DNA of 64,000 nucleotides from positions 1 to 64,000 of the IMG/VR virus record IMGVR_UViG_3300042386_001233. The stretch is one strand, 5' to 3'. Position 1 is the first letter of the stretch. The number at the start of each line of letters is the position of its first letter. The notes beneath the pieces are model-generated. The model was not told the DNA's origin and made no database searches. It saw nothing but the letters and a program-made list of their open reading frames with translations. Source of the DNA: a virus. Of the stretch, positions 25,701 through 51,226 are shown piece by piece. The position numbers were made by a program, and so were the translations under genes.

Positions 25701-28700
25701 GATAAAGATAAAGATGGAAATATAACACAAGAGGAATGGAAAAATAATGTATTAGCACGAGCAAAGGTTCGTAAGCTAGAAAATACCATAAAAATAATTG
25801 AAAAAGAAATAGCTGAAGGAAAACCTGTTCCTGTAAACTTTGAAGCAATGAAAAGAACACTAGGTTTCGCCAAAATAGATGCAGGTATGGCCGCTGCTCC
25901 TGGTGACAATAAGGCTTTTATCGCTAGACAAAAACGTATTGATGATAATATGAATAAAAGATTATTGGGGGGTGGTTCTATTAATAATCCTGATGGTTCT
26001 TATGTTTTTAATAGAGAACTTAATAAGATTTATGATCGTAGATCAGCTTTTGAAGAAGAAAGAAGAGCACAGAGAGCTAAGGACGAAAACGCAACGGACG
26101 AAGAAATATTTGATCGCACAGTAGAGGCCTATGGGGCTGGAGACTCTAACTATTGGCGCAACAGTATGGGAGTCACCGAACTGCCAAATGTTTATGATAA
26201 TTCTAGAACTTTAGACGTTATTCGCAATGAGAGTGATCTCTCCAGTAAGGGAGATCCTAATGGAGAAAAAACTAGAGCATATATAGACGGATATATACAA
26301 TCACAAGGAGCAAGACAACAAGCGGACAGAGTGGCTCGTGGTATTGGGGCAGAGATTGATTCTCCAGATATTGCCGTAACAGGAACTCAGGGACCAGTAG
26401 ATAATCTTAACTATTTAATAGACCAAAAAGAAAAGGGCAGAGTAGCAGAAAAAGCAGCAAGAGACGAAAACTTTAAACAAGAGAATAAAAATAGAGAAGG
26501 CGCTGATGCAAGACAGGCAAAATTGGATCAAAGAGATAAAGAACTAGGTATAGATACTAGCGGCATTAATCGAGATATATATGAGAGTGGTGGAGGTTTT
26601 TCAAATCAGCCAGGAAGTGGCAGAAAAGTTACGATAGAAGAACAAAAACAAAGAAAAAGAGAAAAGGCTATAGCTGCTAGGTTTTCATTTACAGATAAAA
26701 CAGGTAAATACTCCACTACTGGAACTATTGACAAAGTGGATTTTGAAAAAGGTACTGTTAGAATAGCTAAAATTGATCCAAAAACTGGTGAGCCTATTAC
26801 TAGAACCGTTCCGGTTTTTGCCGATGGCCAAACAGAAGAAGAGATTAAAGCTTCTGGTAGAGATCCCGAAAGATTTAAGGTTGGAGAGAAAGAAGAACAA
26901 GTATACACTACTGTACCCCTAGACAAACTTAGTGACCAGTCCAGAGACAAGGCCAGATCCCATGGTTTGGAAAAAGAAGCAGACAAAGCCAAGGCTGGTG
27001 AAAACTTCTCAATAGGGGAGGCTACTGGCAAAAAGCGTACAATATCTGGTAAAATATTCAGAGTAGACGAAAAGGCCGGAACAGCTGTCGTACAAAGAGA
27101 TAGTGGTAAGCTGGTCACTATACCATTAGAGAAACTTGCTCCAGAGTCTAGAAATATAGCACTAGATCAAGCCAAGACAGCTACTACTGTTACTGATTTA
27201 ACGCAGAAACAAATGGATGCTGATGTTGGTAATATTGATGTTACTTCATCATTACCAGAACCACCAATTCCATTAGCTGAAGACTTTACTGATAGAGCAA
27301 ATGAAGTTCGTCAAGAGACGATGAATAATGCTGCTTTAGAACAGACAAAGATGGATCAGTTGCCGATGATGTCTGAGCCGGTACCAACTTCGGGCACTAT
27401 TGATCCTATTACTGGCAAGGTTGTTGGAAATAATGTTTCTATGGACTTGAATCCAGATGGAACTCGTACACCAGAACAATTAAACATATTAAGTCAGCAA
27501 GCTACCAGAGATGCCGATAGGCGTAATTCTAACGCAAGATATGAGGAGCTTAGAGGTCGATCAAAAGCAGAGGATGCATACGACAGATCATGGCTTGGAG
27601 AAAACTGGCCCAAAGAATGGGGAGGAGTACAAAAACCAAAACGAAGATTAACTACAAAAGAACTAGAAGAACTTGGAGCGATGGAAAGCGAGAGAGGTGT
27701 TCCTGCATTATCAAGATTAGGAGCTAATACACGAGCAGAACAAACAAGAAGATCAGCAGGATTAGACGAAGCACAAATTGAAAGTTTGAGTCAACAAAAA
27801 ACAGAACAGTTTAAAGCTGAACTTGAGAAAAAAAATGACGCAGAAGGTGGGGTGGCTGTTGGACTAGCTGCTCAAAGAGCAGTAGTTCCATTATTGGCTG
27901 GTGCTACAGCTATTGCCGCCGCTCCTGCTTTAGTTCCAGCAGGAATAATTGGGGCTGGACTTACTATTGCTGGGGGTGTTACTGCTAGTTTGGGCGCTAA
28001 TAAATTACAAGATATGGCATTAGAAGGTACGGATTTTGATAAGAGACAAAGAGAATTGGCAGAAAAAAGGCCAGGAGCAACTGCTGTTGGTTCTTTATTG
28101 CCAGGATTACTAACGGGCAATCCACTGACTGGTGCAACCACTATGGGTCGAGCACTAGCAACAAGAGCTGCTAGCGGAGCTACTGAAGCAGCATTAGGGG
28201 CCGGTATCAGAGGAGCAACTAGTGGTGGGGATTTTGGTACTTATGAAGATTTCCGGAATGACTTTCTTTCTGGAGTTATTCTTCCAACGTCTAATTTTGG
28301 AAGTAAGGGATCCAGAAATTATAGTCGTCCAGAAGGTCCAGCAAAACCTACGTCTTTAAAGGATGTTGCAGCAACAGTTAGAGATGAACAACTAGCAATC
28401 AGAGAAGAAAACGTTCTTGCTGGTAATGAGAGAATAGCAACTAAACGAAAACAAGACGAAGTTAGAAAAGCGGCACAAGCAGAACAAAGAATCAAAGATG
28501 AAGTAGAAGCAGTGAAAGAATCAGGAAGAGAAAAGGCTGTTTTTGATTTTATGAAGCCACTCATTACTCGTCCAGATAAGAGTAATAGCCCTATAGTAAA
28601 GGGCGTAGCAGACATGGTACTTAATCATCATAGAGATTTGATGGCTAGAGTAAAATCTAAGGATATATTAGAAAAAGGTCGTGGTCTGAATGATGAGCAG

Positions 28701-31700
28701 ATTACAACACAGCTTACAGATGCTGGAATAGATCCTGAACGAGCAGCAGCTATAGTTAGAAAAAGAACAGAAGCCAATAATAAAGCACAATCTGATCTTG
28801 CTTTGGAAAGAGGAACAAGAAGAGCGGAAGCTAAAGAGAGACTAGATGCTGAATATAGAAAAGAAGTTGAAGGAGTTACAGATCCTAAAGAAACAGCAAA
28901 AATAAAGGCTAGATTCCAAGAACAATTAAATAAAGAAGCTTCTTTGATTGATGTCGATATTAACGACAAGACGTCAGCAAATAAAGCCGGTATAACAGTT
29001 CAAGAGCTGAAACAACAAAGAGCAGCAGAAGCTCAAGCCAAAGATAAAGCAGAGTCTGATAAACTAATACAAGAGTTTGATTCTACTCTAGGATCAAGTA
29101 AGCCAACAACTATTGATAATCTTCCTATGGGAGAACCTCTTGATTTAGGTGTGGACCCGCTTGCGCCAATAACATCTGCCAAAGATAATGCTGCTACTAC
29201 GGCAGCTAGTACAAAACCAGTCGATGCTGCAACAGTAGCAGCAAAAAACCAGACAGTAGTCAAGGCAGCAGAACAAGAAAATACATCTTCGCTACAAACA
29301 TCAGCGATACCGCAGCCCAAACCCTATAATCCTACAGATTATCCTATTATGGATAGTATTATGAGAGGAGGAAAGAACGGCCATTATGGTCCGATGGGTA
29401 CTACTAATATAACAGGTAAACAAAATATTCATGGAATAAGCGGATGGAAAACTAGACTCATACCAAAAGACGACGCGTCTGCAGCAAAAATTAAAGAATT
29501 TTTAGATACTCATCCAGATATAGGGGAATATAAGTTAGCATTAAATGAGGGACCAGTACCAGTATTTAGTGTCTATTTCAAAAAGGGCACCAAAGATGAA
29601 GCACTATCTTTTGCACAAGCTAGTGAAAAAGGACTAAAAGATAGTTTAGATCCTCGTTTATATCAGGGTGCTGATACTCTGCTAGAAGGGACAAATATTT
29701 CCGCAAGATTTGATGCTAGAGATCTAAAGTATGAATCAGCATCATCAATTATAGATAGACAACTAGAGAATTCTCCTTTTAGTAGAGGATTTTTAAAAGC
29801 TGAAGAACTGAATCTACAAATACCTGCATCAAATACGGCAGCTGGGTCAACGGCTAGCAGAGCAATGCCAAGCATTACTGCTGGCACCAGAGGAGTACCA
29901 GATACTGGGTATGTTGATTGGTTAAAAACAAAAAAGTTTTTGGCGAAAGATCCTAAAAAGATAGCTAGTCTAGATGCAGAGATACAAAGAGCTACTAACG
30001 TAGCAGATGATTGGCTAAAAGAAAATATGTCAGACCTCTACAGCTCATCTGCTGAACGAACAACTAGAGAATCAACTACTCAAACCGGTGGGGTAAAACC
30101 ACAACAACAAGCAGTAGTTGAAACAGCAATCAGAGATGCCACAAGCACACCAACCAAATCCGGTTTTGTTCGAGACAAATCGTTATCGACAGACAAAGTA
30201 GATGATCTAGCTTCTGCCGGATTTGGAGTTATAAGTCCAGACCAAGAAGTAGAAAGTGTTATAAGAGGAGCAAGAGAAAATTCTCTTGGCGTTTTAACTA
30301 AACCAGCAGCGTTATTACAGCCAGAAACATACCAAAAATATGCAGACCAACTATTAGAACTAGAAAAATCAGGAAAAATAAAAATAACCAAAGGCGCTTC
30401 ATTTGGTACTAGTGGCCAACCAAGTATATTTGTAGGAAAACCAGAAAATGTAGATACTCTTGCAAAAGCTTTTGAATCTGAAACAGCAAGAACACGAGAA
30501 ATGGGGGTTCCAGCATCAGATGAATTTCACGAAACGGTAGGAAAGGCACTAGGATATAGTAAAGATAGTAGAGAACTATTTAGATTAAGAAAAGATTGGG
30601 ATAAAGCAGGATTAGATATAGATACTATTCAAGATAGATTACAAACTAGCCGTGGTGCTGCTGCTAGATATATGGTATCAGAAATTAATAAGGCCAAAGA
30701 ACAAGCATCAGTCGAGCAAGGAGTAAAAGAATCAACAAACCCGCCCATCAAACCTCCTATTGATGGAGATGAATTTGAATTAGGAAACTTGGGAGATGAA
30801 ACCCCAGAAGAAAAGGCTCGACTAGACGCACTATATCCTCCGGGTTCTGAGGGATTTTTGGGCCCAATAAAGCCAGATAATGTATTACCTGAAGCAAGAG
30901 CAGAATCACAAGCTCGCACAGTCGAAACCAAACCATCCTCTTTTGAACAAAATCCAGAAGACTTTACAAAGCTTATTGATGAAACTCTTTCTCCATTCCC
31001 AGAAGACTTTTTCCCAGATGGTTCTTCAAAACCAAATGCTAGAGTAGAAGCAGAAATTGATAGTAATACAGTAAACGCTTCTTCTCCAGAAGCTTTAAAA
31101 GCCTCTGCAGAAGCTCAACAAAAACTAGCAGCACAAAAATTAGCAGCAAAATCTCCAGAACAAATATCTGTAGAAAAAACATATGGTCCTTTATATAGAG
31201 AAGCTAAAAAAGCCAACGATACAGCAGAGATGGCCAGAATACGATCAGAAGCTAATGCAGAATTTAAGAAACGCTCTCAAGAAGCTTCAACCAGAGCTGA
31301 AGATAAAAAGAATAGTTTCCTTCCTGTTATGGGTAAGGTCTTAAAGATAGCTGCCCCCATTGGAACTGCTATAGGTTATGGATTAGGATCATTATTAACC
31401 AGGGATAAGAGAAAAGAAGAACCTCAAGATCCAGCCTCTAAACTAAAAAATGCCTCTAGTTTACAGGAAGTCTACGATTTAATAAGCGCAAACGATAGGG
31501 GAACAAAAGGCTTTAGCGCAGTAGAAATTGCCATGAAGCTTAGAGAAATAGACCCTAAAGCATATGACAAGAGCGGTGATGAGTATGTTAATCTAGGAGA
31601 ATTGGCAGGAATGCCAGATAGTGCATATGATGCATACTTAGACAGATTGAAAGACAGGGCAGCAACAGCAAAACCCGTCAACTATCCAGATGTTCCATCT

Positions 31701-33088: not shown

Positions 33089-36000
33089 ATGGCAAATAAA
33101 CTGGTAAAAGTTTTTGATAATATAGGATTTAATTTTCAAACCATTAATGGTAAGATTAGTCCTATAAAAATCCTATCTGGATTTAATGGATTAAACCAAA
33201 ATCATGTCGGGTACTATATACCATATATTTGTCGTAACAAAAAACTAGGCCTATTAGAAATTGGTATAGGAGATGTTCAAAATGATGATACCGGCAATGT
33301 AGTAATTAATAAGCATAAAATAGTAGTATCTTCAAACAATAATAATGATGTTAACTTTGGTAACGAAAAAGATAATGAGTTTTTTGTTTTTGCTAATCAA
33401 AATATCTTTAATAGCAGTATCAGCAATGTTGTGGTAATAGATTCAAATACGGTCATAGACAACGTATCCGCTATCTATTTAGCAGATTGCTCGAATCAAC
33501 CAATATCTGTTACACTACCAGAAATATCAAACTCAGAGAATATTGTATTAGAATTTAAAAATATTTCACCAAATTATAATTTATCTATTAGAGACAGTAA
33601 GGATGGTTCGGTATCGATATTAGACGATCAAAAGAGCTATGCTAAACTAGTTCCAACTAATGATTCTTGGGTGTCTTTGGCGGACAATAATACAGAATAC
33701 GTTGGCATCCAATCATCAGACCAGCAGATCTCTGCTCAAAGTTCTCCAACAGGAGACGACTTTTCACTACAATACAAAGAAGGTAGCGACCTTGTTGGGT
33801 CTAATATTTACTGGGATTCAGTTAATAACGACTTATTATTAGGCGCAGACAATAGTACTGACGCTTACTCAGTTATTCCAACATCTGGTAATAGGCCTCT
33901 ATATATTAATCAGAAAAAATTAAATAGCGATTTTGTTGTTTATGGTAGTGGTAATAGGAATTTATTCTTTTCTTATGATGGTAGATTAGGTTTGAATATG
34001 CCTTCGGGATCTCGACCATCTACTATATTTCATATTGTAAATACCGTATGTCAAGAAGGTCTCAGACTAGAAAATCGTAACGCTTGTCACCCAGCAGATA
34101 TCACTTTATTTCATAAGCCTAACTCGGCTATCAACAATGGATCTGTTGTATCACAAATTAACTTGGCTGGTAAAAATACTAGTGGTAATAAAGTAGACTA
34201 CGGAGCTATAGAAGCACTAGCAATTAATACCACATCATCTCTAGAAGAAGGTGGACTACAATTTAAGATTGCTGCCGCATCTACCGGAATAAAAGTTTTT
34301 GATAGTAATTATTCAGCCACTACAGTGGGTTATAGCGGAAATAATTTAACTATTAATCGCACAGGATCAACAGTGGTAAGAAATAACAGTGCCGCTGTTA
34401 GTTTATCTTCTAATAGTGTGAATATAAGTGGATCATCAGTAGCCTTAAGTGCACCTAGTCTAGTATTTGGTAATGCCTCATCCTCCATCAGTGCTCCTGG
34501 TGCTATCTCTGCTGGAGCAATATCTGCAACGTCATTACAGTCAAATAATATAGTCGCCCCAAATATTGGTAGTGGTAGCTTTATTACTACTAACGGAAAT
34601 AATCAATTAGTCGGCAGTACCACAATGTCTGTTAATTCTTTGGGCACCTTAAATCTCCCTATTGCATCAAATAAACTATTGCAAACTACTACTAATGGTG
34701 CAATTACTGGTATTTATTCTACGGATGACTATTTCAGAACAGACGGAGATATTGTCTGGAATAAGTATACGCACAGACTAGTTTCTGCTTGTTTGAAGCA
34801 GATAACATTTATTAATCCTGTTTCTGTTGAAGAATATAGTATTGGGGATCAATTAGCAGTAGTGTTATCGTCATCTACTGTTTATAGAAGAATTGTAGAT
34901 GTTTATATTAATAACAATCTTATTACTGGACTATTAGTTGATCAAGATGTCTCGTCCTCAGATGTTGACGGTATAACAGTATACTCTGTTACTAAGGGTG
35001 GATATCTTGATATGCAAATATCTACCGAGGGTGGAGTAATATCTGACTCTACAAAAAATGTTTTAAGTGCTAGAGCAGGAACAAGCACAACATTTAATAC
35101 ATTACAAAAAGATATAGATTTTTCTGTATACGGTATAGACTCTGTTCCAGCTTTAAAGGTTAAAGCCAATTCTGGTAAAATCAGTATCATTTCTGGCATG
35201 TATCGACCATTTTCGCCCAAGCATGAATTGCCCGCATTTCCAATTGTGGTAACTACTGGCGGCGTTGGTTTATCTAATCTATATTCTTCAGCTAATTTTA
35301 ATTATAGTAATACTCAGAATCTATTTTCTGGTATAGTATCTGATGTTGGGTCTAATGGATTGCCTTCTCATTATGGAACGTATGATCAGAACGGTAATGC
35401 TTCGGAATGGGTAGAAAAACCATACATGCTAGAAAGTAGAGATAAAGAAGAATACGCTGCTGGTGGTTCGTATTCTACTTCAAATGCTTTAGGAGGAAGC
35501 GGTCTCAAACATATTGAGACGTTAACAAGAGCATCTGGCTATTCTTACGTTGGTTTTAGAGTTGCTTCTCTCTACAACACAACAGACCCAACAACCATCT
35601 CTTCAACAGACCAACTATCTATGAGTTTTGTTGGCGTTATTGATCCTCAAAATACCGAAGACGTTTCTACAACATATATAAAAAATGGTGAAACATTTAA
35701 TTCAATAATTATTAATAACCTTGGTGTTGTTGATAATATGTATAGAATTGGTAGATATGAAGTAACTAATAAACAATACTGTCGATTCCTAAATGCTGTG
35801 GCTAAAAATAACGATAGAGGCTTGTATGACTCTAGAATGAGCAGTCAAAATGTTGGTGGTATTAGTCGAATATTTGATGCAGAGTATATCTATACTACTA
35901 AGCCTAATATGGACAATAAGCCCGTATTATTTGTAAACTATTTAAGTGTTATAAGGTTTATAAATTGGCTTCATAATGGAGCTTCTGTAACTATTAGTGA

Positions 36001-36598
36001 GTCAAATATTGACTATAATTTGGATATGGGTGCATATTCCATAATACCTATTGGTACAGACTCATATAATGTTGTTCAATCCTCTTATAGAAAATACTGG
36101 CTACCTAATCTAAATGAGTGGCATAAAGCGGCTTATTTTGAACCAGTAGATGTTAATGCTTATACTGGAACATCAACCGTAATGGTTAAGAGAGAAGATC
36201 CTTATCTTGTTGCCTCTGGTCTAGATTCAGACACTAATAAATTTAAGGAATTATTTGCGAATTTAAGTGTTAGTGGATGGTTATATGTTGATCATTTAAT
36301 TGTCGGAGACGGAACAATACGGTCATCCAAGAGATTTACTGGACTAATTCCATCTACTGGTACTACTACTAATACTCAAAATGTCACAACACAAACTACT
36401 AATAATATTAATTTGCCACCAACCTCATTGGACGATATTATTAATAGCGATAATAATGCTGTAGAAACAACAGCTTCAACAGTATCTGTTGGAACTAGCA
36501 TATCTGGTATCCCACTAAGAAGAGCTCAAGATACTGATTGTGTTGAAAATCCACCTTGGTTCTGCAATCCTAATAATACTGGTCCAAGTTTATTTTAG
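33089..36598 (+). CDS. Tail fibre-like protein with permuted SUMF1/FGE-like domain
   Basis: A 1,169-residue protein directly after the tape measure. Residues 1-200 are a beta-rich start; about 270-560 is fibre-like Ser/Asn/Gly-rich sequence ('INLAGKNTSGNKVDYGAIEALA'-type segments). At 634-705 is a module shared with the next gene (VTKGGYLxMQ ... DIDFSVYG ... SGMY). Residues 753-826 carry the second half of a SUMF1/FGE domain ('YGTYDQNGNASEW', GGS, 'GFRVAS'), and 884-1020 the first half ('GRYEVTNKQYCRFLN', 'RFINWLHNG', 'WLPNLNEWHKAAY'). This is the reverse of the normal order. The catalytic cysteine pair of true FGE is missing, so it is probably a ligand-binding fold. Confidence 0.7.
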   Translation: MANKLVKVFDNIGFNFQTINGKISPIKILSGFNGLNQNHVGYYIPYICRNKKLGLLEIGIGDVQNDDTGNVVINKHKIVVSSNNNNDVNFGNEKDNEFFVFANQNIFNSSISNVVVIDSNTVIDNVSAIYLADCSNQPISVTLPEISNSENIVLEFKNISPNYNLSIRDSKDGSVSILDDQKSYAKLVPTNDSWVSLADNNTEYVGIQSSDQQISAQSSPTGDDFSLQYKEGSDLVGSNIYWDSVNNDLLLGADNSTDAYSVIPTSGNRPLYINQKKLNSDFVVYGSGNRNLFFSYDGRLGLNMPSGSRPSTIFHIVNTVCQEGLRLENRNACHPADITLFHKPNSAINNGSVVSQINLAGKNTSGNKVDYGAIEALAINTTSSLEEGGLQFKIAAASTGIKVFDSNYSATTVGYSGNNLTINRTGSTVVRNNSAAVSLSSNSVNISGSSVALSAPSLVFGNASSSISAPGAISAGAISATSLQSNNIVAPNIGSGSFITTNGNNQLVGSTTMSVNSLGTLNLPIASNKLLQTTTNGAITGIYSTDDYFRTDGDIVWNKYTHRLVSACLKQITFINPVSVEEYSIGDQLAVVLSSSTVYRRIVDVYINNNLITGLLVDQDVSSSDVDGITVYSVTKGGYLDMQISTEGGVISDSTKNVLSARAGTSTTFNTLQKDIDFSVYGIDSVPALKVKANSGKISIISGMYRPFSPKHELPAFPIVVTTGGVGLSNLYSSANFNYSNTQNLFSGIVSDVGSNGLPSHYGTYDQNGNASEWVEKPYMLESRDKEEYAAGGSYSTSNALGGSGLKHIETLTRASGYSYVGFRVASLYNTTDPTTISSTDQLSMSFVGVIDPQNTEDVSTTYIKNGETFNSIIINNLGVVDNMYRIGRYEVTNKQYCRFLNAVAKNNDRGLYDSRMSSQNVGGISRIFDAEYIYTTKPNMDNKPVLFVNYLSVIRFINWLHNGASVTISESNIDYNLDMGAYSIIPIGTDSYNVVQSSYRKYWLPNLNEWHKAAYFEPVDVNAYTGTSTVMVKREDPYLVASGLDSDTNKFKELFANLSVSGWLYVDHLIVGDGTIRSSKRFTGLIPSTGTTTNTQNVTTQTTNNINLPPTSLDDIINSDNNAVETTASTVSVGTSISGIPLRRAQDTDCVENPPWFCNPNNTGPSLF

Positions 36599-36617: not shown

Positions 36618-39110
36618 ATGAGTACGCCATGGTACACAATATTCGGTCCTAGGTCTTGGCCAGGAGTAGAAATCAATACCGGCAATAAAAAGATAGATGC
36701 CGTATACTATAATTTATTGAGCAACAACAATGTTCAGTTAGCTGCTAGCGGAGTTATGTGGCTAGTTGCTGGTACTGGGATTAGAATGATTACTCCTGGT
36801 TATGTTGATGTTAGTGGGCTAAGAGCACATACTCTCCTTTTTAAGGACTCAAAGAGAATTGACAATAGTGGAAATATTATACCAACATATAGTGGAAGTA
36901 TAGGATCTGTAGCATATAAATACGATGATCATAATCTTGCTGGTATTCCTAGTGACGAATTAGTGTATAATAGCGGTCTTGGTAAGTTAACTATGCCATC
37001 TAAAGACATTGGTTTATTATATGTCAGTAGAGGTAATGTTGACGATGGAGCAGCCCCAACAAAAGAGTTTGGCTCATTCTCAGATATTGTTCCAGTGCCA
37101 AGAAAAGTTATTACAAGTACAGAGCCGGGTGTTCCTCCAACAATTATTCCTTCTTATGTTGCTGTAAATACTCATGCTATATTTAGTAGCGGAGTATCTA
37201 TTTATCCTAATTTAGAAAGCTATAAAGGAAGCATTCTGACCCATATGGGTTCTGGTAATAAGGTAGAGTGGACAAGTGCTCCGTATTTGAAAGCAGATGG
37301 AGCAACGTGGACTAGATTTCCAAAGAGGCCAATATATATTGATGGAGACAGAGTAATCTTCTATACAACAAGGCCTTCGTGGGCGCAAGACTGGGTTAAT
37401 AGTCCAACACTTGAAAGTCTGGCAACAGAATTTGGCAATGGCGAAGATACCATAGAACTAATAACATCGCTAGATAGATCTGTTACACATGTGAAGTTCG
37501 CAACAACTATTCTCTACGGTGTTGGAGATGTTCAGTCAGGAGATGGTCCAGATTTATTAACTCCACTCAACTCGCTATTTACTCCTGTAACATTTACAGA
37601 TCCTGACGAAACAGACCCAGACGCTCCGCAAGCAGCAGGATATGCTGTTAAAATTTGTAGTCCAAAACCTTGGGATGGCTCATCATCAAAAGTTGATGTT
37701 AATGGATATGCGTTTTCTGTTACCAAGGGCGCTTATCTAAGTATGCAACTATCTCCAGATGCTACCGATAGATTTAATTGTATTGATAATTTCCCTAATA
37801 GTCCATTTAGATTTAAGCCAAGTACATCTAATAATATCAGTATAAGGCCTAATGTTAATACTGGTTTTAATTTACTAGCAGAGAATATTGACTTTATGGT
37901 TTTTGGCCAGCGGAAGACAAGCTTTAATAATTATGAAGAAGGAGTATTTGGTCTAGATAATAGTCTAACTCCAACTGGTTTGACACCAGCTTTTAAGGTA
38001 GATGCTAATATTCCTAATGCCGCAAGTGGCAGTATAGAGTCTGGCATTTATTATATTAAATATTTAGATAGAGCAAGACTAAATCCTTCTGGATGGAATT
38101 ATGATACTAATCCCAAGATTACGATAAACGCTAACTCTGCACATAGGATATCGTCGTTAGCTACTGGCATTAATACTGGGTTGGGATTATATGCTGATTT
38201 AACAGTAAGCGGAATAACATATAGTACTCAGGTTATGGCTGATAAAATTTTCTTGAATCCTAAGCCAACAGATGACAACTCTAGTATTTATATTGCTAAT
38301 TCTTTACTTACTCTTGATAGGTCTGGTAGGATTATTTCTCGTATTCCAAGACAAAATCCAACAGTCCCATCAGCACCAAGTGGCATAAGGTTAGACCCAG
38401 GTCACACCAACGGTATAGGCAACACAGAAGTTTCTCTAGTATGGACAGCACCAGAAAGCGACGGTAGAAGTGCTTTATTAGACTATGTTTTACAATTTTC
38501 TAGTAATAATGGAGAAACGTGGACAGACTTACCCAATAATTTATATAGTATAGATAGAGCATCAGATATTACTCCATTAGCAACAATTGTTGGACTATCT
38601 CCATTAGTCTCATACCGATTCAGAGTGGCTGCACAAAACGGTATTGGCCTTGGAGATTACTCAAATGCTTCAACTTCAATTACTCCTGGTTCTGAAGTTC
38701 CAAAACGACCAGATAGTTTAGTTGCTAGTAGAGCATTTGATGAAACTTTGTATTCAAACATAACGCTATCTTGGGATGCTCCTCAAGCAGGAGCAGACGA
38801 TGTATTAGGATATGTTATTGAAGAATCAACAGACAATGGAGCCACTTGGCAATATTATAACCTTCTAACTGCCTTAATATCTTCAACGTCAGAATTAATA
38901 TCTGGAACTGAGTCTGCGTTAGATTATGCTTATAGAGTATCAGCATGGAATTCTTATGGTCAAAGTGCTTTCTCTTATGTTTATGTTCAAGGTAATGTTA
39001 TTGACGAAGTTGATCCAGAAGAAGCTGCTAGACAAGAAGAAAAAGCTAATGACGTTTTAAGTAATTGGGATTTCGGTAAAGTACTATTCACAGGAGTATG
39101 CCCCACATGA
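36618..39110 (+). CDS. Tail protein with two FN3 domains
   Basis: An 830-residue protein. Residues 1-360 are beta-rich and unassigned (start 'TPWYTIFGPRSWPGVEIN'). Residues about 368-475 share a module with the upstream protein ('VTKGAYLSMQ', 'NIDFMVFG', 'SGIYY'). Residues about 585-690 and 695-795 are fibronectin type III domains: 'PSAPSGIRL', 'VSLVWTAPESDG', 'YRFRVAAQN'; then 'ITLSWDAPQAG', 'YVIEESTDNG', 'YAYRVSAWNSYG'. FN3 domains are common on phage tails and bind cell-surface sugars or support other domains. An acidic helix ends the protein. Its stop overlaps the next start. Confidence 0.7.
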   Translation: MSTPWYTIFGPRSWPGVEINTGNKKIDAVYYNLLSNNNVQLAASGVMWLVAGTGIRMITPGYVDVSGLRAHTLLFKDSKRIDNSGNIIPTYSGSIGSVAYKYDDHNLAGIPSDELVYNSGLGKLTMPSKDIGLLYVSRGNVDDGAAPTKEFGSFSDIVPVPRKVITSTEPGVPPTIIPSYVAVNTHAIFSSGVSIYPNLESYKGSILTHMGSGNKVEWTSAPYLKADGATWTRFPKRPIYIDGDRVIFYTTRPSWAQDWVNSPTLESLATEFGNGEDTIELITSLDRSVTHVKFATTILYGVGDVQSGDGPDLLTPLNSLFTPVTFTDPDETDPDAPQAAGYAVKICSPKPWDGSSSKVDVNGYAFSVTKGAYLSMQLSPDATDRFNCIDNFPNSPFRFKPSTSNNISIRPNVNTGFNLLAENIDFMVFGQRKTSFNNYEEGVFGLDNSLTPTGLTPAFKVDANIPNAASGSIESGIYYIKYLDRARLNPSGWNYDTNPKITINANSAHRISSLATGINTGLGLYADLTVSGITYSTQVMADKIFLNPKPTDDNSSIYIANSLLTLDRSGRIISRIPRQNPTVPSAPSGIRLDPGHTNGIGNTEVSLVWTAPESDGRSALLDYVLQFSSNNGETWTDLPNNLYSIDRASDITPLATIVGLSPLVSYRFRVAAQNGIGLGDYSNASTSITPGSEVPKRPDSLVASRAFDETLYSNITLSWDAPQAGADDVLGYVIEESTDNGATWQYYNLLTALISSTSELISGTESALDYAYRVSAWNSYGQSAFSYVYVQGNVIDEVDPEEAARQEEKANDVLSNWDFGKVLFTGVCPT

Positions 39111-43138: not shown

Positions 43139-45454
43139 ATGTCAAATGTTAAAAGCATAGGAATTAAAGTTAGTGGATTAAGTCCACTAGATACATATAA
43201 TTATACATTTTCAAATAAGGGAGGAAATTGGCCAGTTAAACTATCTCCATTATCTGGATCTTTCAAGTCCAATTCTATAGGCAACGTATATGAGATTAGA
43301 TCATATGTAGAATTTTGTGCAACAACGGGGCTATGTCCTCCGGGAGCAACTAACGTTTTATACAATGCTCCATATATTGATAGTAATGCTGGTGCCTCTG
43401 TAGACAGAACAACACTGTATTCTGTAATAGGCTTATCTCTAGTATCAGCAGCAACGTCTGAAAAAGTCTTAGATACTCAAGCACTAATAGAGTGCGAAAA
43501 TTGCTTACCAAACATCTCTCTAACAGCAGAAGAAAATATCGTGTTAGATGAGTCATCATTAAATACCAGACAAATAGCTACAGCAGTCAATGGTTTGATT
43601 CCCAACCAATCTTATACATATGTCTTTACATCAATCGATAGTAATTGGCCAGTAAAAGTAACTCCAGTTTCTGGCACTATTCGCTCATCAGCCGATTCTG
43701 CTAATATTAAGAGTCTAGTAACTCTTTGTGCCAATTCTGGAGATTGTGCTAATGGATTGTTTTTTGTTCCAACACAAAATTGTGATGCTGGTCAGAGCCC
43801 GTTCTCAGCTATCAAGCTTACAGTATCTCCAGTAAATAGTAGCCTACAAGAGCCCGTATCCGCTGATTTTACCGTATCTTGTGATAATTGTATTCCTAAA
43901 TTATCATTAATTTTACCATCTACCGTTAAACTTGATAGATTATCTAAGAATAAAACTTCTATAAATTTAGTAGCATCCAATCTTAAGCTTGGAAAACAAT
44001 ATGTTTATCATATTAATAGTGTAGATGCTAATTGGCCAGCTATTGTTACCCCCATTAGTGGTAAGCTAACTGCACATTATGATAGTATGAACATCCCACT
44101 GACTGTTACATTATGTCCATCAACAGGACTATGCCCATCAGCCAGCAGCGACGTAATAGACTATAGTATAGACAGTAACTGCTTATTAGGCTATTCAAAT
44201 ATGGAGAGGTATGTTAGATTTAATGCTGATATTTCTGGAAATGAGTGTGATAGCGGATACGACAAAACCTATAGCAATGATGTAACGGTATCTTGTGTTG
44301 ATTGTTTGCCAAGAGCCAAAGTCTCTATTCCAAGCATAATGCTCTTATCTTCTGAGGATAAAAACGTAAATACCTTTACTTCTGATATAACCGATCTAGC
44401 TCCTGGACAAAAATATGAATATTCATTTAAATCAGTAGATAGTAACTGGCCCACACTGGTATATCCTATAACTGGTATTATTAGCACAGAATCAACATCA
44501 ATATCATTATCATCTAGAATAACATTTTGCAGATCAACGGGTCTATGTGAGAATGCTGAAAATCTTTTAGATTATACCTTTGATAATAGCAGTTTATATA
44601 GTGAGGGTCTTGAGAGATATTCTTCCATCGTTTTAGAGATTAAACCAGTAGACTGTTCATCTATACCGGTTTCTACAAGCAATACCATGCTAGTTAGATG
44701 TGACGGCTGTTTGCCAGTAGCATCTCTAACTCACTCATCCAATAGTGCTATTCTCTCTAGTCCAGGAATAAACAGATTCCAACTATCAACATCTGCTCAA
44801 AACCTAATTCCCGGAGAAACTTATTCATACGGAGTTAACTATGTTGATAGTAACTGGCCAACAATTGTGTCTAAACAATCTGGTGAATTTGTAGCTGTAT
44901 CTTCTAATAAAAATATCTTAACTGAATTGCAGTTCTGTTTTCCTAGCGGTACTTGTTCTCAAAATCCTGTTGATGTGATGCCATATAGAGTTAGTCCGAT
45001 TACTGCTAATACTAATAAATATGCTGTTATTAATCTTTCTATTACTGACACTACTAGCTCAAGTAGTCCTACTATTAGCGATGACTTCACACTAACCTGT
45101 TCAAATTGCCTACCAAATATTAATTACACTATGGCATTTTCTGGCAGTCCAACATTAGTACTACCAAGCAATTGTTGTTCTGGTAATCAAGTTATGAGAG
45201 TAAATATTGGCGGAGCTATTGCTGGAGATATTCATAATTATGTTCTATCTTCATCTTCTCCAAACGTATCATTCATGCCAACCAGCGGACAGATAATTTT
45301 CAAACAAGGCGGTTCTGGTACTATTGTTAGCATGATGAGCACATCACTAAGTAGTGAAACATCAGCAATAGCACAATGCAAGTTAACTAATGTTAGTTCT
45401 AATATTGAGACTGTAGACTTTTTGGTTATCAAATGCGGAACGAATGCCTGCTAA
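43139..45454 (+). CDS. Cysteine-repeat tail protein, six repeats
   Basis: A 771-residue protein made almost wholly of the repeat, starting within the first copy. Copies 1-5 contain NWPV/NWPA/NWPT with SG or TG, (F/L)C-x(3)-G-x-C, and C-(D/E/V/S/G)-(N/D/G)-C-(L/I)-P; the sixth is divergent ('PNVSFMPTSGQIIF', ending KCGTNAC). The NWP and CxxCLP positions are the best conserved, with about 125 residues between copies. The lack of any other domain suggests a rod made of beta-sandwich beads. AAGG lies 11 bases ahead of the start. Confidence 0.62.
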   Translation: MSNVKSIGIKVSGLSPLDTYNYTFSNKGGNWPVKLSPLSGSFKSNSIGNVYEIRSYVEFCATTGLCPPGATNVLYNAPYIDSNAGASVDRTTLYSVIGLSLVSAATSEKVLDTQALIECENCLPNISLTAEENIVLDESSLNTRQIATAVNGLIPNQSYTYVFTSIDSNWPVKVTPVSGTIRSSADSANIKSLVTLCANSGDCANGLFFVPTQNCDAGQSPFSAIKLTVSPVNSSLQEPVSADFTVSCDNCIPKLSLILPSTVKLDRLSKNKTSINLVASNLKLGKQYVYHINSVDANWPAIVTPISGKLTAHYDSMNIPLTVTLCPSTGLCPSASSDVIDYSIDSNCLLGYSNMERYVRFNADISGNECDSGYDKTYSNDVTVSCVDCLPRAKVSIPSIMLLSSEDKNVNTFTSDITDLAPGQKYEYSFKSVDSNWPTLVYPITGIISTESTSISLSSRITFCRSTGLCENAENLLDYTFDNSSLYSEGLERYSSIVLEIKPVDCSSIPVSTSNTMLVRCDGCLPVASLTHSSNSAILSSPGINRFQLSTSAQNLIPGETYSYGVNYVDSNWPTIVSKQSGEFVAVSSNKNILTELQFCFPSGTCSQNPVDVMPYRVSPITANTNKYAVINLSITDTTSSSSPTISDDFTLTCSNCLPNINYTMAFSGSPTLVLPSNCCSGNQVMRVNIGGAIAGDIHNYVLSSSSPNVSFMPTSGQIIFKQGGSGTIVSMMSTSLSSETSAIAQCKLTNVSSNIETVDFLVIKCGTNAC

Positions 45455-45481: not shown

Positions 45482-48400
45482 ATGCTAGATATTATAGGAT
45501 TAAATTCCGCAAACTATAACAATTGTATAGAATGGAGATATATCCCAGGAGATTTAACTACTGTTGGATATAACGGAGGTCCAAGTCAATACAATACATA
45601 TGATCAGTCTGGTAATATCTGGGAGTGGACAGAAGAGTTTGATACTATCAGTGTTGGCGGAAACGATTACTATTATAGAAGAATTCGAGGAGGTTCTTTT
45701 AGGGATAGTGCTCAAACTTTATCTTCTTTGTATACTCATTCAAGACATATTCCCGGTAGTGCCGAAGCAGACAATAATCTTGTTATTAAGGATAATATTG
45801 GTTTTAGGTTGATTTCTAGTGGAAATCCTTTATCTCTACAGCATTTTGTTAATGTTGGAGATATCAACAATTCTCCTCTGGTATTGACCGGAGATTATGC
45901 TGGTTCATATGGTTCTGTTAATTACGAGTATTTAATAAATCAAATACCTGTAACTAATGATGATTATGTAGTTTTTTTAAATACTGTTGATTCTAATGGG
46001 ACTAGGATTCAACTAAGCGAAACCTTCAATGCCTCTGGTCAATCTACTGCAAATAATCAAAATGTATTATATCATTTTTATATGTCTTCTGATCAAAGAG
46101 GTGGCATAGAGTTTAATAGTGGTGAAGTTGTTGGTAGAAAATATAAATCTAAAAGTAATATGGGCAATAAGCCTGTAAATTTTATTACTTGGTATATGGC
46201 TGCAAGTTATTGCAACTGGCTACATAACAAGGTTTCTGATCCAGATACTACCACAACTAATACGGGGGCTTATGACTTATCGTTAGATGATAATCTTATA
46301 GTTCGCGCTAATGATAGTTATTATAGCTTGCCGTCGGACAATGAATGGTTCAAAGCCGCTTATTACAAGGGCGGTTCATCAGATGCCGGTTATTGGACTT
46401 ATGCAACAAGGTCAGATTCTGATCCAACATGTATTGATGTTGACGAAAACGGAATAGGCCCATGGCAAAAATCTCAAGATTATGTTAGTATACCATTAAA
46501 TAATTTGGTTATCGGTAATAGTTATACTGTTAATTTCGAAATATCAAAAACATCACCGTATTCTGTAGATCTAGATAAGAATAGCTATTCTTTCATCGCT
46601 TCTGCTCCTACTGAGAGTGTTGTTGTTTGTGTCACTAAATATTTAATAGTAGATTTTGCTATTATAATATACTCATTAACAAATAATAATTCTGGACTAC
46701 TTGAATCTGTTGATTCTGTAGTTTTACAATGCTCTTCTAGAAATTCTTGTAAACTTACTCGCACCCCAACTCCTACTAAAACTGTTACTCCAACACCAGC
46801 AGCTAGTCAGAGTCCTACTCCAACAATAACTCCTACTCCGTCGAGAACTCCAACAATAACGCCAACAATTACAGTTACCTCAACTGCTACTCCAACAGTT
46901 ACTCGAACAGTAACGCCCACCCCGTCTCTTACAGCTTCTGAAACTGCTACTCCGACAGCCACAAGAACATCCACTCCCACGCCAACACCAACAATTACTG
47001 TAACAAGAACAGTAACCCCAACCATAACAGTAACTAGAAGCGAAACACCAACTCCAACAGTAACTAAAACAACAACACCAACTCCAACAGTAACTAAAAC
47101 AACAACACCAACCCCAGCAGCTAGTCAAACACCAACGCCAACTGTTACTCCAACAATAACAGCATCTAGAACCCCAACCACTACAGCTACTCCAACCATT
47201 ACCATTACTCCTAGTATTACTATAACTAGAAGCGAAACACCGACTCCAACAGTTACTAGAACAAATACTAGAACTCCAACAGTAACACCATCAGTAACAG
47301 CTTCATTAACTCCAACTATAACAGTAACTAAAACAACAACACCAACAGTTACTCCAACAGTCACCCCTACTCCATCAAGACCATTTGCTTTTGTCAGCAC
47401 ATGGAATACATTAAGTACTAGTACTGGTAGTAGTACGACTAGTCGAATTAAACTACCATTAATATTAGGTGGTACTTATAACTTTATTGTTAACTGGGGA
47501 GATGGAAATAGTAATAATATAACATCTTGGAACCAATCCGAGGTGACTCATACGTATGCTAGTACTGGTATTAAAACCATAACTATTACTGGAACTATCA
47601 AAGGATGGGAATTTAATAATAGTGGAGATAGATTAAAGATTACTAATATTAGCAATTGGGGTCCGTTGGATATGAATGTGACTGGCAGTTCCAGAAACTT
47701 TAATGGTTGTGCTAATTTAAATATTACTACTGGAGGATCTCCAGTTATGCCAACCAATTGTACTGGTATGTTTGAGGGTTGTAGTGCTCTTGTTGGAGTT
47801 GGCATTAACGATTTTAATATGGCGACCGTAACCAATACTTCATATATGTTCTCTTCTTGTTCGCTTTTTAATGCTCCAATTAATAATTGGAATACTAGTA
47901 GCGTAACTAATATGAGTGGCATGTTCTTTGAAGCTATTAGCTTTAATCAGCAAATAGGAACTTGGAATACTAGTAGAGTTACTAATATGAGCAGCATGTT
48001 TAATGGGGCTTCAGGTTTTAATCAGCCATTAAATACTTGGAATACTTCAGCAGTAACTAATATGAGTAGCATGTTTACTAGTACAGGGCAGTATAATCAA
48101 AGCATGAGCAGTTGGGACACCAGCAAGGTTACTAATATGAGTAGCATGTTTCTCAATGCTTTATCTTTTAATCAAGATATTAGTATGTGGAATATATCAT
48201 TAGTGGTATCTATGAATGATATGTTAAGAGGTACCAGTTTTAATCAAACCAACTACCATGCTTTACTTACTTCTTGGGGTAGTAGTACTACCCCCACTCA
48301 AAACAATGTTACTCTTGCTGTTGATCAAGAATATTCTTCAATAAATGCTACAATAGTAAGTAGAAGACTATATTTAATAAATACTAAGGGTTGGAATATT

Positions 48401-49228
48401 ATTGATTATGGTAATGAAACTAGTATGATAGTTAGATATAATAGTACAAATATTACTTGGCAGGTTAATAACGGTTGGCAATGGACGAATGAATTATACT
48501 CTATATTAAAACCACAAAATGATACCATAGTAGAAGTTAACTGGGGAAATGGACAAAATTTTGTATATAATTCGAGTAATGCTATATTAGCAGGAGTCTA
48601 TTCTCCTACTTATGCTGCTAGTACTACATATACCATTAGAATAACAAAAAGGAGTGGTACTGGACTTATTGAACTTGGCCCTTCTGCAAATCATACTGCC
48701 GGTCAGACGTATGGTATGCCACAATATTATACTCCATTTCAAAATAGCGTAACTGCCATAGATAGATTTGGTAGTAATATTAAACTTAGATCTGGAGAAA
48801 ATCACTTCGCCTATTATAATAATCTGGTTTCTGTTTCTAGTACGGACGCACCTATTAATCCATCAGATAATTCCTACCGTAATATCTTTCTTAACTGTTC
48901 AAACTTTGTTGGAACTGGTTTGAACAATTGGAATACTAGCTCTATAACTAATATGTTTGGTGCATTTCAGAATAATTCTAGTTTCACTTTTGATTTGAGA
49001 AACTGGAATTTATCTAATGTTACAGATATGGGTCAGATGCTGTTGAACGCTACTAGTTTTGGTACCGGCAACTACAGTTTTCTGTTGCAGCACTTAAATG
49101 ACAATAATACTAAAAATAATGTTCCTTTAAGAAGTAGTTCTAGATATTTTAATCAAGCCAGCGTAACTTCTGCAAGAGCGTCTTTGGTGGCAAGAGGATG
49201 GACTATTATCGATTTAGGAGCAATATAA
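45482..49228 (+). CDS. Large adhesin: permuted SUMF1-like, Pro/Thr stalk, BspA/DUF285 repeats
   Basis: A 1,248-residue protein; ATG 45482 (AGAGG about 8 bases ahead) is preferred to TTG 45476. Residues 28-110 hold the SUMF1 C-terminal half ('YNTYDQSGNIWEW', 'RIRGGSF', 'GFRLIS'), about 130-310 the N-terminal half ('FITWYMAASYCNWLHN', 'LPSDNEWFKAAYY', 'YWTYATRSDSDP'): permuted order. A divergent cysteine-repeat copy ends near 425. Residues 427-633 are a Pro/Thr stalk. About 635-980 has a WGDGN-type beta domain then at least five DUF285/BspA repeats ('W(N/D)TSxVTNMSxMF', 'FNQ'); a second, weaker set is at about 1110-1248. DUF285 and SUMF1 folds bind ligands, so host adhesion is likely. The stop overlaps the next start (TAATG). 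Confidence 0.72.
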   Translation: MLDIIGLNSANYNNCIEWRYIPGDLTTVGYNGGPSQYNTYDQSGNIWEWTEEFDTISVGGNDYYYRRIRGGSFRDSAQTLSSLYTHSRHIPGSAEADNNLVIKDNIGFRLISSGNPLSLQHFVNVGDINNSPLVLTGDYAGSYGSVNYEYLINQIPVTNDDYVVFLNTVDSNGTRIQLSETFNASGQSTANNQNVLYHFYMSSDQRGGIEFNSGEVVGRKYKSKSNMGNKPVNFITWYMAASYCNWLHNKVSDPDTTTTNTGAYDLSLDDNLIVRANDSYYSLPSDNEWFKAAYYKGGSSDAGYWTYATRSDSDPTCIDVDENGIGPWQKSQDYVSIPLNNLVIGNSYTVNFEISKTSPYSVDLDKNSYSFIASAPTESVVVCVTKYLIVDFAIIIYSLTNNNSGLLESVDSVVLQCSSRNSCKLTRTPTPTKTVTPTPAASQSPTPTITPTPSRTPTITPTITVTSTATPTVTRTVTPTPSLTASETATPTATRTSTPTPTPTITVTRTVTPTITVTRSETPTPTVTKTTTPTPTVTKTTTPTPAASQTPTPTVTPTITASRTPTTTATPTITITPSITITRSETPTPTVTRTNTRTPTVTPSVTASLTPTITVTKTTTPTVTPTVTPTPSRPFAFVSTWNTLSTSTGSSTTSRIKLPLILGGTYNFIVNWGDGNSNNITSWNQSEVTHTYASTGIKTITITGTIKGWEFNNSGDRLKITNISNWGPLDMNVTGSSRNFNGCANLNITTGGSPVMPTNCTGMFEGCSALVGVGINDFNMATVTNTSYMFSSCSLFNAPINNWNTSSVTNMSGMFFEAISFNQQIGTWNTSRVTNMSSMFNGASGFNQPLNTWNTSAVTNMSSMFTSTGQYNQSMSSWDTSKVTNMSSMFLNALSFNQDISMWNISLVVSMNDMLRGTSFNQTNYHALLTSWGSSTTPTQNNVTLAVDQEYSSINATIVSRRLYLINTKGWNIIDYGNETSMIVRYNSTNITWQVNNGWQWTNELYSILKPQNDTIVEVNWGNGQNFVYNSSNAILAGVYSPTYAASTTYTIRITKRSGTGLIELGPSANHTAGQTYGMPQYYTPFQNSVTAIDRFGSNIKLRSGENHFAYYNNLVSVSSTDAPINPSDNSYRNIFLNCSNFVGTGLNNWNTSSITNMFGAFQNNSSFTFDLRNWNLSNVTDMGQMLLNATSFGTGNYSFLLQHLNDNNTKNNVPLRSSSRYFNQASVTSARASLVARGWTIIDLGAI
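46762..47382 (+). repeat. Pro/Thr-rich tandem repeat, stalk of adhesin
   Basis: About 620 bases encoding T-P-T-(V/I)-T-x-T type units ('TPTPTVTKTTTPT', 'TVTRTVTPT'). One stretch of about 39 bases (47045 and on) is repeated head to tail at 47084. It should be an extended rod and is a likely site of length change by recombination. Confidence 0.85.
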
Positions 49229-49674
49229 TGAGATTAATAAACAATATTAGCAAATACATGTATTACTATATATCGGAGAATCAAAGCTACGGGTTTCTTA
49301 ATTTTGGACAACAACTAGAGACAAATAAAAATATTGTTTCTTTTTTATCAGTTGAAGAATGGAAAAATCATATTAATACTGAACTAGCAACAGATATTTG
49401 GCTGAATGAAGATTTAAAAAAGGAACTAGAAGAGCAAACTAAAGATACAGCAAAACATAGCGATGTTGGATATTTAACAGCTTACAACTTTAGACTACCA
49501 GTAAATGAAGAAACTGATTCTAAGCTTAATCAACTATTATCGTCCAACACAGATCCTGTGCGGATAACTGCTATGTCGGGTGACGTTTATACTCTAAGCA
49601 AAGCCGATCTAATATCTTTGATTGATCAATATACAAAAGACAAACCCTTATATCTAGCTATGGTAGAGAAATAA
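49228..49674 (+). CDS. Unknown tail-region protein
   Basis: A 148-residue protein; ATG 49228 (TAATG overlap with the upstream stop, GGAG at 49218) is preferred to ATG 49198 inside the neighbour. It has an aromatic N-terminus ('ISKYMYYYISENQSYGFLNFG'), a charged helical middle ('WLNEDLKKELEEQTKD') and 'VRITAMSGDVYTLSKADLISLIDQ'. I know no family. It lies between two permuted-SUMF1 proteins and may be an accessory or assembly factor for them, by analogy with small genes beside fibre genes. Confidence 0.5.
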   Translation: MRLINNISKYMYYYISENQSYGFLNFGQQLETNKNIVSFLSVEEWKNHINTELATDIWLNEDLKKELEEQTKDTAKHSDVGYLTAYNFRLPVNEETDSKLNQLLSSNTDPVRITAMSGDVYTLSKADLISLIDQYTKDKPLYLAMVEK

Positions 49675-49675
49675 T

Positions 49676-51226
49676 ATGTTATTAACTTGCAATAGTGCTA
49701 ATTACGGAAGCAGAGCAGACTGGAATACGTTAGATGGCAACGTATCAACAGTTGGCTCTAATGGTAAAAGTAGCTACTATGGCACTTTTGATCAAACTGG
49801 AAATGTTAATGAGCTATTAGACACTATTAGCGGTAGCTATCCTGTGGTCCGTGGAGGCTCTTTTAATAACGACCAAACCTATCTAACTAAAACATGGTTT
49901 AGCACCCAGGCTCTGGATGGGAAAAGTAGCAATATAGGATTCAGAATAGCAAAAGCATCTTCAAGCATAGATTCCACAAACTACGTATTAGTTGAAAATG
50001 CTGAAAATAATGGAGATAGTAGCAATAATGATTTTGGTAGAGTTAATTATAGTTATCAAATAAAAAAATATTTAGTAACAAATAGTGAATATGTAGAGTT
50101 TTTGAATGCCATTTCTACTAAACCAAATGGATTAGAATTATGGCGTGCTGATATGGGAGACCCTAATAGGAGAGGTGGTATAAGCCGCACTTTAGTTAAC
50201 ACATCATATGTCTATGCCGCTCTGCCAAACATGGGAAACAAGCCAGTCAATTATATCAATTGGTTTAATGCTGTTAGGTACATCAACTGGCTTCATAATG
50301 GTAAGCTTACTGGAACACCAACAGCTGGAACCACAGAAAGTGGTGTTTATACATTATCTAATAATATAATTCAGGGTACTAATAAGCCATCACCAGCTAA
50401 TAAAAATTCATACTGGCTTCCTTCTGAAGATGAGTGGTATAAAGCAGCATACTATGACCCTAATAAAAACGGACTTGGTTTACCAGGATACTGGACTTAT
50501 GCAACAATGTCTGATTCTGTTCCTGATGCTGCTGTTGTTGATGCGGCAGGAACAGCAAACAATACATATAGTAATCCTAATATTTGTATTAGCCCCACAC
50601 CAACCCCAACAGTTACGCCGTCTATTACGGCGTCTCCAACAGTTACTCCTAGTATAACGGTGTCGTTATCTTCAACAGCAACTGTTACTCCAACAGTAAC
50701 TCCAACTATAACTATTACATCTAGTGTTACTCCTACTAAAACACCTACTAAAACACCAACCATGACTCGCAGTTTAACTCCAACACCAAGCCTAACTGCT
50801 AGTGTTAGTCCTAGTATTACTGTTTCAATATCTCCGACCAGAACCCCTACAATGACTAGGACTCTAACTCCAACAGTTACTCCTACTGCTAGTGTCACGG
50901 TTACTCCTTCAAAAAGTTTATGTGCTCAGAAGAAATTAGGAGAATTATTATATCAAAGTGCTGTTTATGTAAATGATGACATTCAAGTATTACATAAAGG
51001 ATTTTTATTACAAGGTAAATTATCTCCAAACGTTAGTTTACTATCTGAGCAACCTAATGCTTCTCCAACGCCGACCAATACTGTTAGTCCAACGAATACT
51101 CCAACCATAACAGTTACCAGAACGTTAACGGCAACCCCTACCCTAACTAGAACATTAACGCCAACTCCTACCACAACAAGTACACTGACACCAACACCAA
51201 CTCCTACTCCGTCATCTAGCGGTTAG
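49676..51226 (+). CDS. Permuted SUMF1-like protein with Pro/Thr stalks
   Basis: A 516-residue protein, nearest to the minimal form of the permuted domain. Residues 26-90: 'VGSNGKSSYYGTFDQTGN', 'VRGGSF', 'GFRIAKAS' (canonical C-terminal half). Residues about 125-285: 'KKYLVTNSEYVEFLNA', 'YINWFNAVRYINWLHNG', 'WLPSEDEWYKAAYYDP', 'GYWTYATMSDSVPD' (canonical N-terminal half). Two Pro/Thr repeat stalks (about 306-413 and 462-516) flank a 48-residue segment. FGE catalytic cysteines are lacking. It would be a short, lectin-like tip on a stalk; function inferred. Confidence 0.7.
   Translation: MLLTCNSANYGSRADWNTLDGNVSTVGSNGKSSYYGTFDQTGNVNELLDTISGSYPVVRGGSFNNDQTYLTKTWFSTQALDGKSSNIGFRIAKASSSIDSTNYVLVENAENNGDSSNNDFGRVNYSYQIKKYLVTNSEYVEFLNAISTKPNGLELWRADMGDPNRRGGISRTLVNTSYVYAALPNMGNKPVNYINWFNAVRYINWLHNGKLTGTPTAGTTESGVYTLSNNIIQGTNKPSPANKNSYWLPSEDEWYKAAYYDPNKNGLGLPGYWTYATMSDSVPDAAVVDAAGTANNTYSNPNICISPTPTPTVTPSITASPTVTPSITVSLSSTATVTPTVTPTITITSSVTPTKTPTKTPTMTRSLTPTPSLTASVSPSITVSISPTRTPTMTRTLTPTVTPTASVTVTPSKSLCAQKKLGELLYQSAVYVNDDIQVLHKGFLLQGKLSPNVSLLSEQPNASPTPTNTVSPTNTPTITVTRTLTATPTLTRTLTPTPTTTSTLTPTPTPTPSSSG
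50592..50913 (+). repeat. Pro/Thr-rich repeat
   Basis: Codes for units such as 'TPTVTPSITASPTVTPSITV' and 'TPTKTPTMTRSLTPTPS'. The reverse-strand frames here are only complements of the repeat. Confidence 0.8.
51061..51222 (+). repeat. Pro/Thr-rich repeat, C-terminal stalk
   Basis: Codes for 'SPTPTNTVSPTNTPTITVT' and similar up to the stop; second stalk of the same protein, after a 48-residue non-repeat insert. Confidence 0.8.

Follow-up and report, generated by a model that had tools for sequence, protein, structure and literature searches.

Circularly permuted SUMF1/FGE-type domains in tail-module proteins of a group of large phages

The C-type-lectin/FGE superfold serves as one of the main scaffolds on which variable ligand binding is built, also in proteins that are diversified by diversity-generating retroelements (DGRs). 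The described members closest to the proteins studied here are: 1) the bacterial PF03781 domains, in which an N-terminal half (N-half) is followed by a C-terminal half (C-half); 2) TvpA of Treponema denticola (PDB: 2y3c) and the other variable proteins of the Mtd/TvpA type, which are unpermuted and diversified by a DGR reverse transcriptase; 3) FGE (SUMF1; PDB: 1y1e and 2aft), an enzyme with the canonical order of the halves and a pair of catalytic cysteines, together with its paralogue SUMF2 (PDB: 1y4j). Natural circular permutants are known among concanavalin A/legume lectins and among the swaposins; they represent the same kind of evolutionary event as that described below, but none of them has the FGE/C-type-lectin fold. 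Circularly permuted DNA methylases have been mentioned in jumbo phages, and a survey of 224 such phages reports that FGS (PF03781) domains were not found (PMC7824862). In contrast to that survey, we here describe a 244-kb phage (IMG/VR virus record IMGVR_UViG_3300042386_001233; 243,821 bases, of which bases 1-64,000 constitute the window analyzed) with four PF03781 domains, and a relative with about ten, all of which are circularly permuted, such that the C-half precedes the N-half.

We regard it as highly probable that the proteins in question are tail or adhesin proteins whose SUMF1/FGE-type (C-type-lectin-superfold) domain is truly circularly permuted and serves in binding, not catalysis; it would most likely bind the host surface, and the permutation would have re-anchored it. 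The fold is a known one, with a new and recurrent topology of its chain ends. The Pfam and PHROG models that were matched have the canonical order, NCBIfam gave no match for the permuted domain, and no permuted SUMF1/FGE or C-type-lectin-fold family was found in the literature, of which preprints and most subscription papers lay outside the scope. This agrees with a preliminary description of the same DNA, made by inspection of the letters and their open frames, which knew of no described permuted SUMF1 family.

Order and completeness of the domain halves

The preliminary description had read the C-half before the N-half in the proteins starting at 33089, 45482 and 49676, and had proposed running hidden Markov models (HMMs) of the two halves over phage proteins. 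Such half-domain HMMs recovered both halves, within open frames and in exactly this order, in the window as well as in other IMG/VR proteins. The three window genes are all on the plus strand. The first (33089-36598) codes for a 1169-aa protein with an internal domain, whose C-half (VGSNGLPSHYGTYDQNGN...GGSY...GFR; 35285-35569; half-HMM E = 2e-18; PF03781 profile 156-253) is encoded ahead of the N-half (EVTNKQYCRFLN...NWLHNG...LPNLNEWHKAAY; 35678-36154; E = 2e-45; profile 35-126). The second (45482-49228; 1248 aa) has the domain at its N-terminus, with the C-half at 45497-45817 (E = 3e-27; profile 172-254) and the N-half at 45842-46453 (E = 3e-59; profile 36-139), followed by a further stretch, a Thr/Pro stalk and DUF285/PARCEL repeats. 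The third (49676-51226; 516 aa) likewise begins with the domain, the C-half at 49688-49951 (E = 2e-29; profile 161-255) preceding an N-half that ends GYWTYATMSDSVP... (49979-50560; E = 1e-65; profile 35-128), and continues into a Thr/Pro stalk. As whole proteins the three score 48.9-55.4 with PF03781, above its curated cut-off of 23.3. Across the whole record this model gives eight matches, two halves in each of four proteins, the fourth of which (240770-242794) lies outside the window; in all four, profile positions ~130/172-254 precede positions 35-~169, the reverse of the canonical order of the family, and the four domains align with each other end-to-end.

A search of all frames of at least 20 codons in the window with the half-domain HMMs found no further N- or C-half, and five codon-shuffled control windows gave zero matches. 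No canonical partner is therefore hidden upstream of the permuted genes, and canonical halves missed upstream or out of frame can be ruled out for the window. In two details the earlier reading needs amendment. It had placed the cut directly between YWTYATxSDSVP and VGSNG, but the actual cut lies about 20 residues before VGSNG, in a loop flanked by xxGDG and NSANY. The 40-60 residues that it gave between the halves hold as a motif-to-motif distance but not as the linker from HMM edge to HMM edge, which is usually 6-16 residues long (about 33 in the 33089 protein).

We compared two sequence profiles, A2, derived from 88 natural permuted domains, and A3, derived from 77 canonical bacterial domains. 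Unrotated, A2 aligns with A3 over the N-half alone (180-182 columns, score 522). When A2 is rotated stepwise, the alignment rises smoothly to a single peak at 98-102 columns and there covers 272 of the 293 canonical positions (score 704), which indicates that essentially no part of the domain has been lost and that the order alone has changed. As is required of a circular permutant, both halves are complete and become collinear with their homologues after one rotation. The sequence-profile matches to the solved chains of FGE, SUMF2, TvpA and CarF are non-collinear; for instance, in CarF (PDB: 5aoh) profile positions 175-261 match residues 76-163, and positions 29-92 match residues 199-263. Likewise, the Pfam and PHROG matches of the permuted domains are to canonical-order models and fall in two non-collinear pieces. 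The phage SUMF1/FGE domains are a real circular permutation, not two fragments.

The preliminary description had further proposed structure prediction as a check on whether the halves pack into one fold, and the models speak in its favour. An AlphaFold2 model of residues 1-298 of the 49676 protein, with an input alignment of permuted sequences only, shows one compact fold (mean predicted local distance difference test score, pLDDT, 96.1; predicted template-modelling score, pTM, 0.93); a canonical control, a domain from a verrucomicrobial metagenome-assembled genome (MAG), gave a pLDDT of 93.7 and a pTM of 0.93. After rotation, the two models align over 272 residues with 40% identity and 86% secondary-structure agreement. 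Such bacterial canonical copies (verrucomicrobial L115 and L093) are the nearest to the phage domains in residues, predicted fold and trees; the difference is that in the phage domains the chain opens between the halves and is continuous across the former termini. Searched against PDB with Foldseek, a sequential aligner, the canonical control recovers TvpA, CarF, FGE, SUMF2 and EgtB at full length (E ~1e-11 to 1e-7, template-modelling (TM) score <=0.66; for TvpA, CarF and FGE 310-350 columns, TM 0.5-0.66, E ~1e-11 to 1e-8), whereas the equally confident permuted model recovers the same proteins in pieces only (TvpA over 102 columns, TM 0.23, probability 0.99). This is the behaviour that a permutation predicts for a sequential search. 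A search of the BFVD structures gave no match, an outcome to be expected, as the aligner is sequential and the phage group uncultured. That the permuted halves form one FGE-type domain is thus well supported by the predicted structures. Given that order-dependent annotation and sequential structure search each see half of such a domain, permuted proteins are easily missed.

The halves might alternatively be independent half-domains, or might pair in trans or by domain swapping with neighbouring chains, in which case there would be no permuted single domain. Tail fibres are often trimeric, and the canonical tandem arrays of bacteria do put a C-half beside the N-half of a different domain; however, every single-domain chain has exactly one full complement, and the isolated 298-residue chain is itself predicted to be one compact domain. 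The spacing, too, argues against such half-domains. Of 203 C-to-N pairs, a few of them junctions in cellular arrays, 202 have a linker of 6-16 residues, but ~70 to >700 residues separate an N-half from the next C-half in arrays, which identifies CN as the unit. Moreover, the N-half of one permuted domain, in L265:2-8566 (frame residues 628-1205), has an entire canonical domain nested within it, after which the host domain resumes. We hence consider separate or trans-paired halves to be very unlikely. The same nesting suggests that the canonical termini are close together.

Catalytic columns, variable segment and tail-module setting

FGE and SUMF2 resemble the phage domains at the level of the fold family, as seen in the profile comparison and in the structure search with the canonical control. 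The absence of the catalytic cysteines of FGE, noticed in the preliminary description, holds across the 88 permuted domains: the columns aligned with the cysteine pair, after the GGS motif, are occupied mainly by S/D/N/T and L/I, with no cysteine among their commonest residues. This makes FGE chemistry unlikely. An active FGE-like, EgtB-like or other metal-dependent enzyme that was permuted by chance would be in keeping with membership in PF03781, a family that includes copper and iron enzymes, but these columns, and the location of the genes in a tail module among FN3 and Thr/Pro-stalk proteins, make it a most improbable account.

TvpA and the Mtd/TvpA variable proteins share with the phage domains the FGE-type C-type-lectin fold and a variable loop at the same place in the C-half. 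The C-terminal end of TvpA is the region where DGR variable proteins are diversified. In the permuted domains variability is highest in the C-half, from GGS to GFR (entropy of 3.16 bits/column versus 1.84 overall), and this segment aligns with the end of TvpA. Together with the presence of TvpA among the closest solved structures, this might be taken to indicate a DGR-diversified variable protein of the Mtd/TvpA type. Yet no match to the reverse transcriptase family RVT_1 was found in the 243.8-kb record and 11 relatives, all of which may be incomplete, and the permutation places the variable segment away from the C-terminus. We accordingly give little credence to a DGR-diversified protein; with no reverse transcriptase in the 12 records, diversification, if selected, would proceed without an obvious DGR.

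The tail module in which the genes for the permuted domains are found also encodes FN3 domains, Thr/Pro stalks and DUF285/PARCEL repeats, and we therefore read the domain as that of a probable host-surface-binding tail adhesin. The permuted domain is likely to bind a host surface or receptor in a lectin-like manner, and contact would most plausibly be made by the variable C-half loop that matches the variable region of TvpA. The permutation would shift the attachment of stalks and neighbouring domains relative to this binding face, and we hypothesize that such re-anchoring is its advantage.

Distribution and evolution of the permuted domains

To survey viruses we used scans of IMG/VR, in which most virus records are fragments, followed by classification with the half-domain HMMs. 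About 119 distinct open reading frame sequences contain permuted domains, some of these being the same gene cut short at the edge of a locus; removal of near-copies leaves about 90 permuted domains. The domains occur singly or as CNCN, CNCNCN and CNCNCNCN arrays, and A2 finds them in virus records as single full-length matches (~2-302 of 303 positions, up to 424 bits). An assembly or gene-calling artefact, be it an inversion or two joined gene fragments, would be a natural suspicion with metagenomic assemblies, but its probability is negligible. The preliminary description had already argued against an assembly error from the presence of the order in three genes; this record has the order in four, and one scan alone shows it in at least 69 contigs from 57 metagenome samples. 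The frames are long and open, their motifs are conserved and no half is left over.

In cells we recovered the canonical order. The 80 best cellular loci are NC, NCNC or NCNCNC only, and the 24 strongest A2 matches among 392 genomes of the phylum to which a planctomycete MAG belongs cover essentially the N-half only (best 218 bits); no permuted domain was found in these 80 best loci or among the strongest matches of the 392 genomes of that one bacterial phylum. Nine other records with permuted domains encode a full-length terminase 74-96% identical to that of this phage, and two more have a partial terminase match at the record end; identity to cultured phages is at most 26% among the matches listed. 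The common terminase indicates that much of the permuted family belongs to a single coherent group of large, uncultured phages. A tblastn search of 50,697 phage records with two different permuted domains gave no match to a cultured relative. A cyanophage origin was considered and rejected, as none of 19 records showed a gene for a photosystem reaction centre.

A 107-row tree unites 47 permuted domains in one set (Shimodaira-Hasegawa-like approximate likelihood ratio test, SH-aLRT, 100), and in a 60-row mixture-model tree one split (98/93) divides the permuted from the canonical domains, with the exception of L182. The permutation may have arisen once, with an early branch, or twice. Unlike the natural permutants mentioned above, the phage family has several cut points. 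A second type (L021-L023) starts with YAMYATRSNSAP and ends with DEWYKAAYY; a third (L219 and L291) starts near YWxPSxDEW and ends with GAYPLxGAxSGI, after which a Thr/Pro stalk follows, and the L291 polypeptide combines this type with a main-type permuted domain. Both types lie inside the permuted part of the tree, and it seems that a permuted domain was re-permuted at further points within the permuted clade. With all cut points falling within canonical positions ~130-198, the scaffold accepts new termini in this segment, and phages use this repeatedly.

Further unusual arrangements were also recovered. In the L244 record a canonical domain comes after a permuted one, and L349-L351 (e.g. L351:6497-8590) have a C-half, ~150 residues that are possibly Ig-like, an N-half and a C-half; this C-N-C form may resemble an intermediate between the permuted and the canonical order. 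Insertions of ~60-270 residues are seen in the N-half or at the C-to-N junction of the permuted domains of L274, L275, L154 and L287, suggesting that these loops tolerate inserted domains.

The likeliest route to the permuted order would be a tandem duplication followed by trimming, in which the loss of the first N-half and the last C-half of NC-NC leaves C-N. The old N- and C-termini would then be joined by the short linker, with the new termini in the loop between xxGDG and NSANY. We favour this route because canonical NC-NC tandem arrays with the same short linker exist in bacteria, the C-to-N linker being 5-16 residues in 10 of 18 of their junctions. The permuted module would subsequently have spread in large phages, with duplication (up to 10 per record) and re-permutation elsewhere in the same segment of the chain. 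The co-occurrence of canonical, permuted, re-permuted, nested and C-N-C forms makes the duplication and trimming route directly testable. On balance, we lean slightly towards the broader view that this is the first natural permuted branch of the FGE/C-type-lectin fold, an adhesin module restricted to one uncultured large-phage group, cut in at least three ways and able to host a nested canonical copy, in which permutation serves as a recurrent re-anchoring of a variable binding face.

Several points weigh against reading these proteins as host-surface-binding adhesins whose domain was permuted from the canonical order. The permuted domain L182 is placed at the canonical edge of the tree, and the direction of the change is taken from the universality of the canonical order outside these phages, not from a tree root. 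Cellular genomes were surveyed through the best matches and one phylum. The evidence for the fold consists of AlphaFold2 predictions, not solved structures, and the virion location and host-surface binding are deduced from the genomic context, namely the tape measure, the FN3 domains and the Thr/Pro stalks.

Neighbouring genes

Directly 5' of the gene for the 1169-aa protein is that for a 6454-aa tail tape-measure protein (13704-33068, plus strand; PF10145 PhageMin_Tail, E = 6e-21, plus EF-hands), which puts the neighbouring genes in a tail module. By eye, it contains the enzyme-like motifs GGFAPPTRGH, AGAAGSGKSS (a P-loop) and HEMTH; in Pfam it matches only PhageMin_Tail, EF-hands and, weakly, a holin-like model. 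An FN3-containing minor-tail-like protein (36618-39110, plus strand; PF00041 and PHROG minor tail protein matches) is encoded between the permuted-domain genes. The DUF285/PARCEL-type repeats, a naming derived from Mycoplasma and Listeria surface proteins, are here placed behind a permuted FGE domain in a tail-module protein, at ~47753-48650 of the 45482-49228 gene, with the best stretch at 47753-48079 (plus strand; PF03382, E = 1.9e-66; TIGR02167, E = 2e-16). No RNA families were found in the window. The protein encoded at 43139-45454 has about five repeats of a ~130-residue unit (xNWPxxVxPxSG ... CxxxGLC ... CxxCLP), which is unassigned to a family. Elsewhere in the same phage, beside the packaging genes (L009:1-5553; G000:224000-229552), there are by eye sugar-metabolism genes, with products resembling glucosamine-fructose-6-phosphate aminotransferase, GDP-fucose synthase and GDP-mannose dehydratase.

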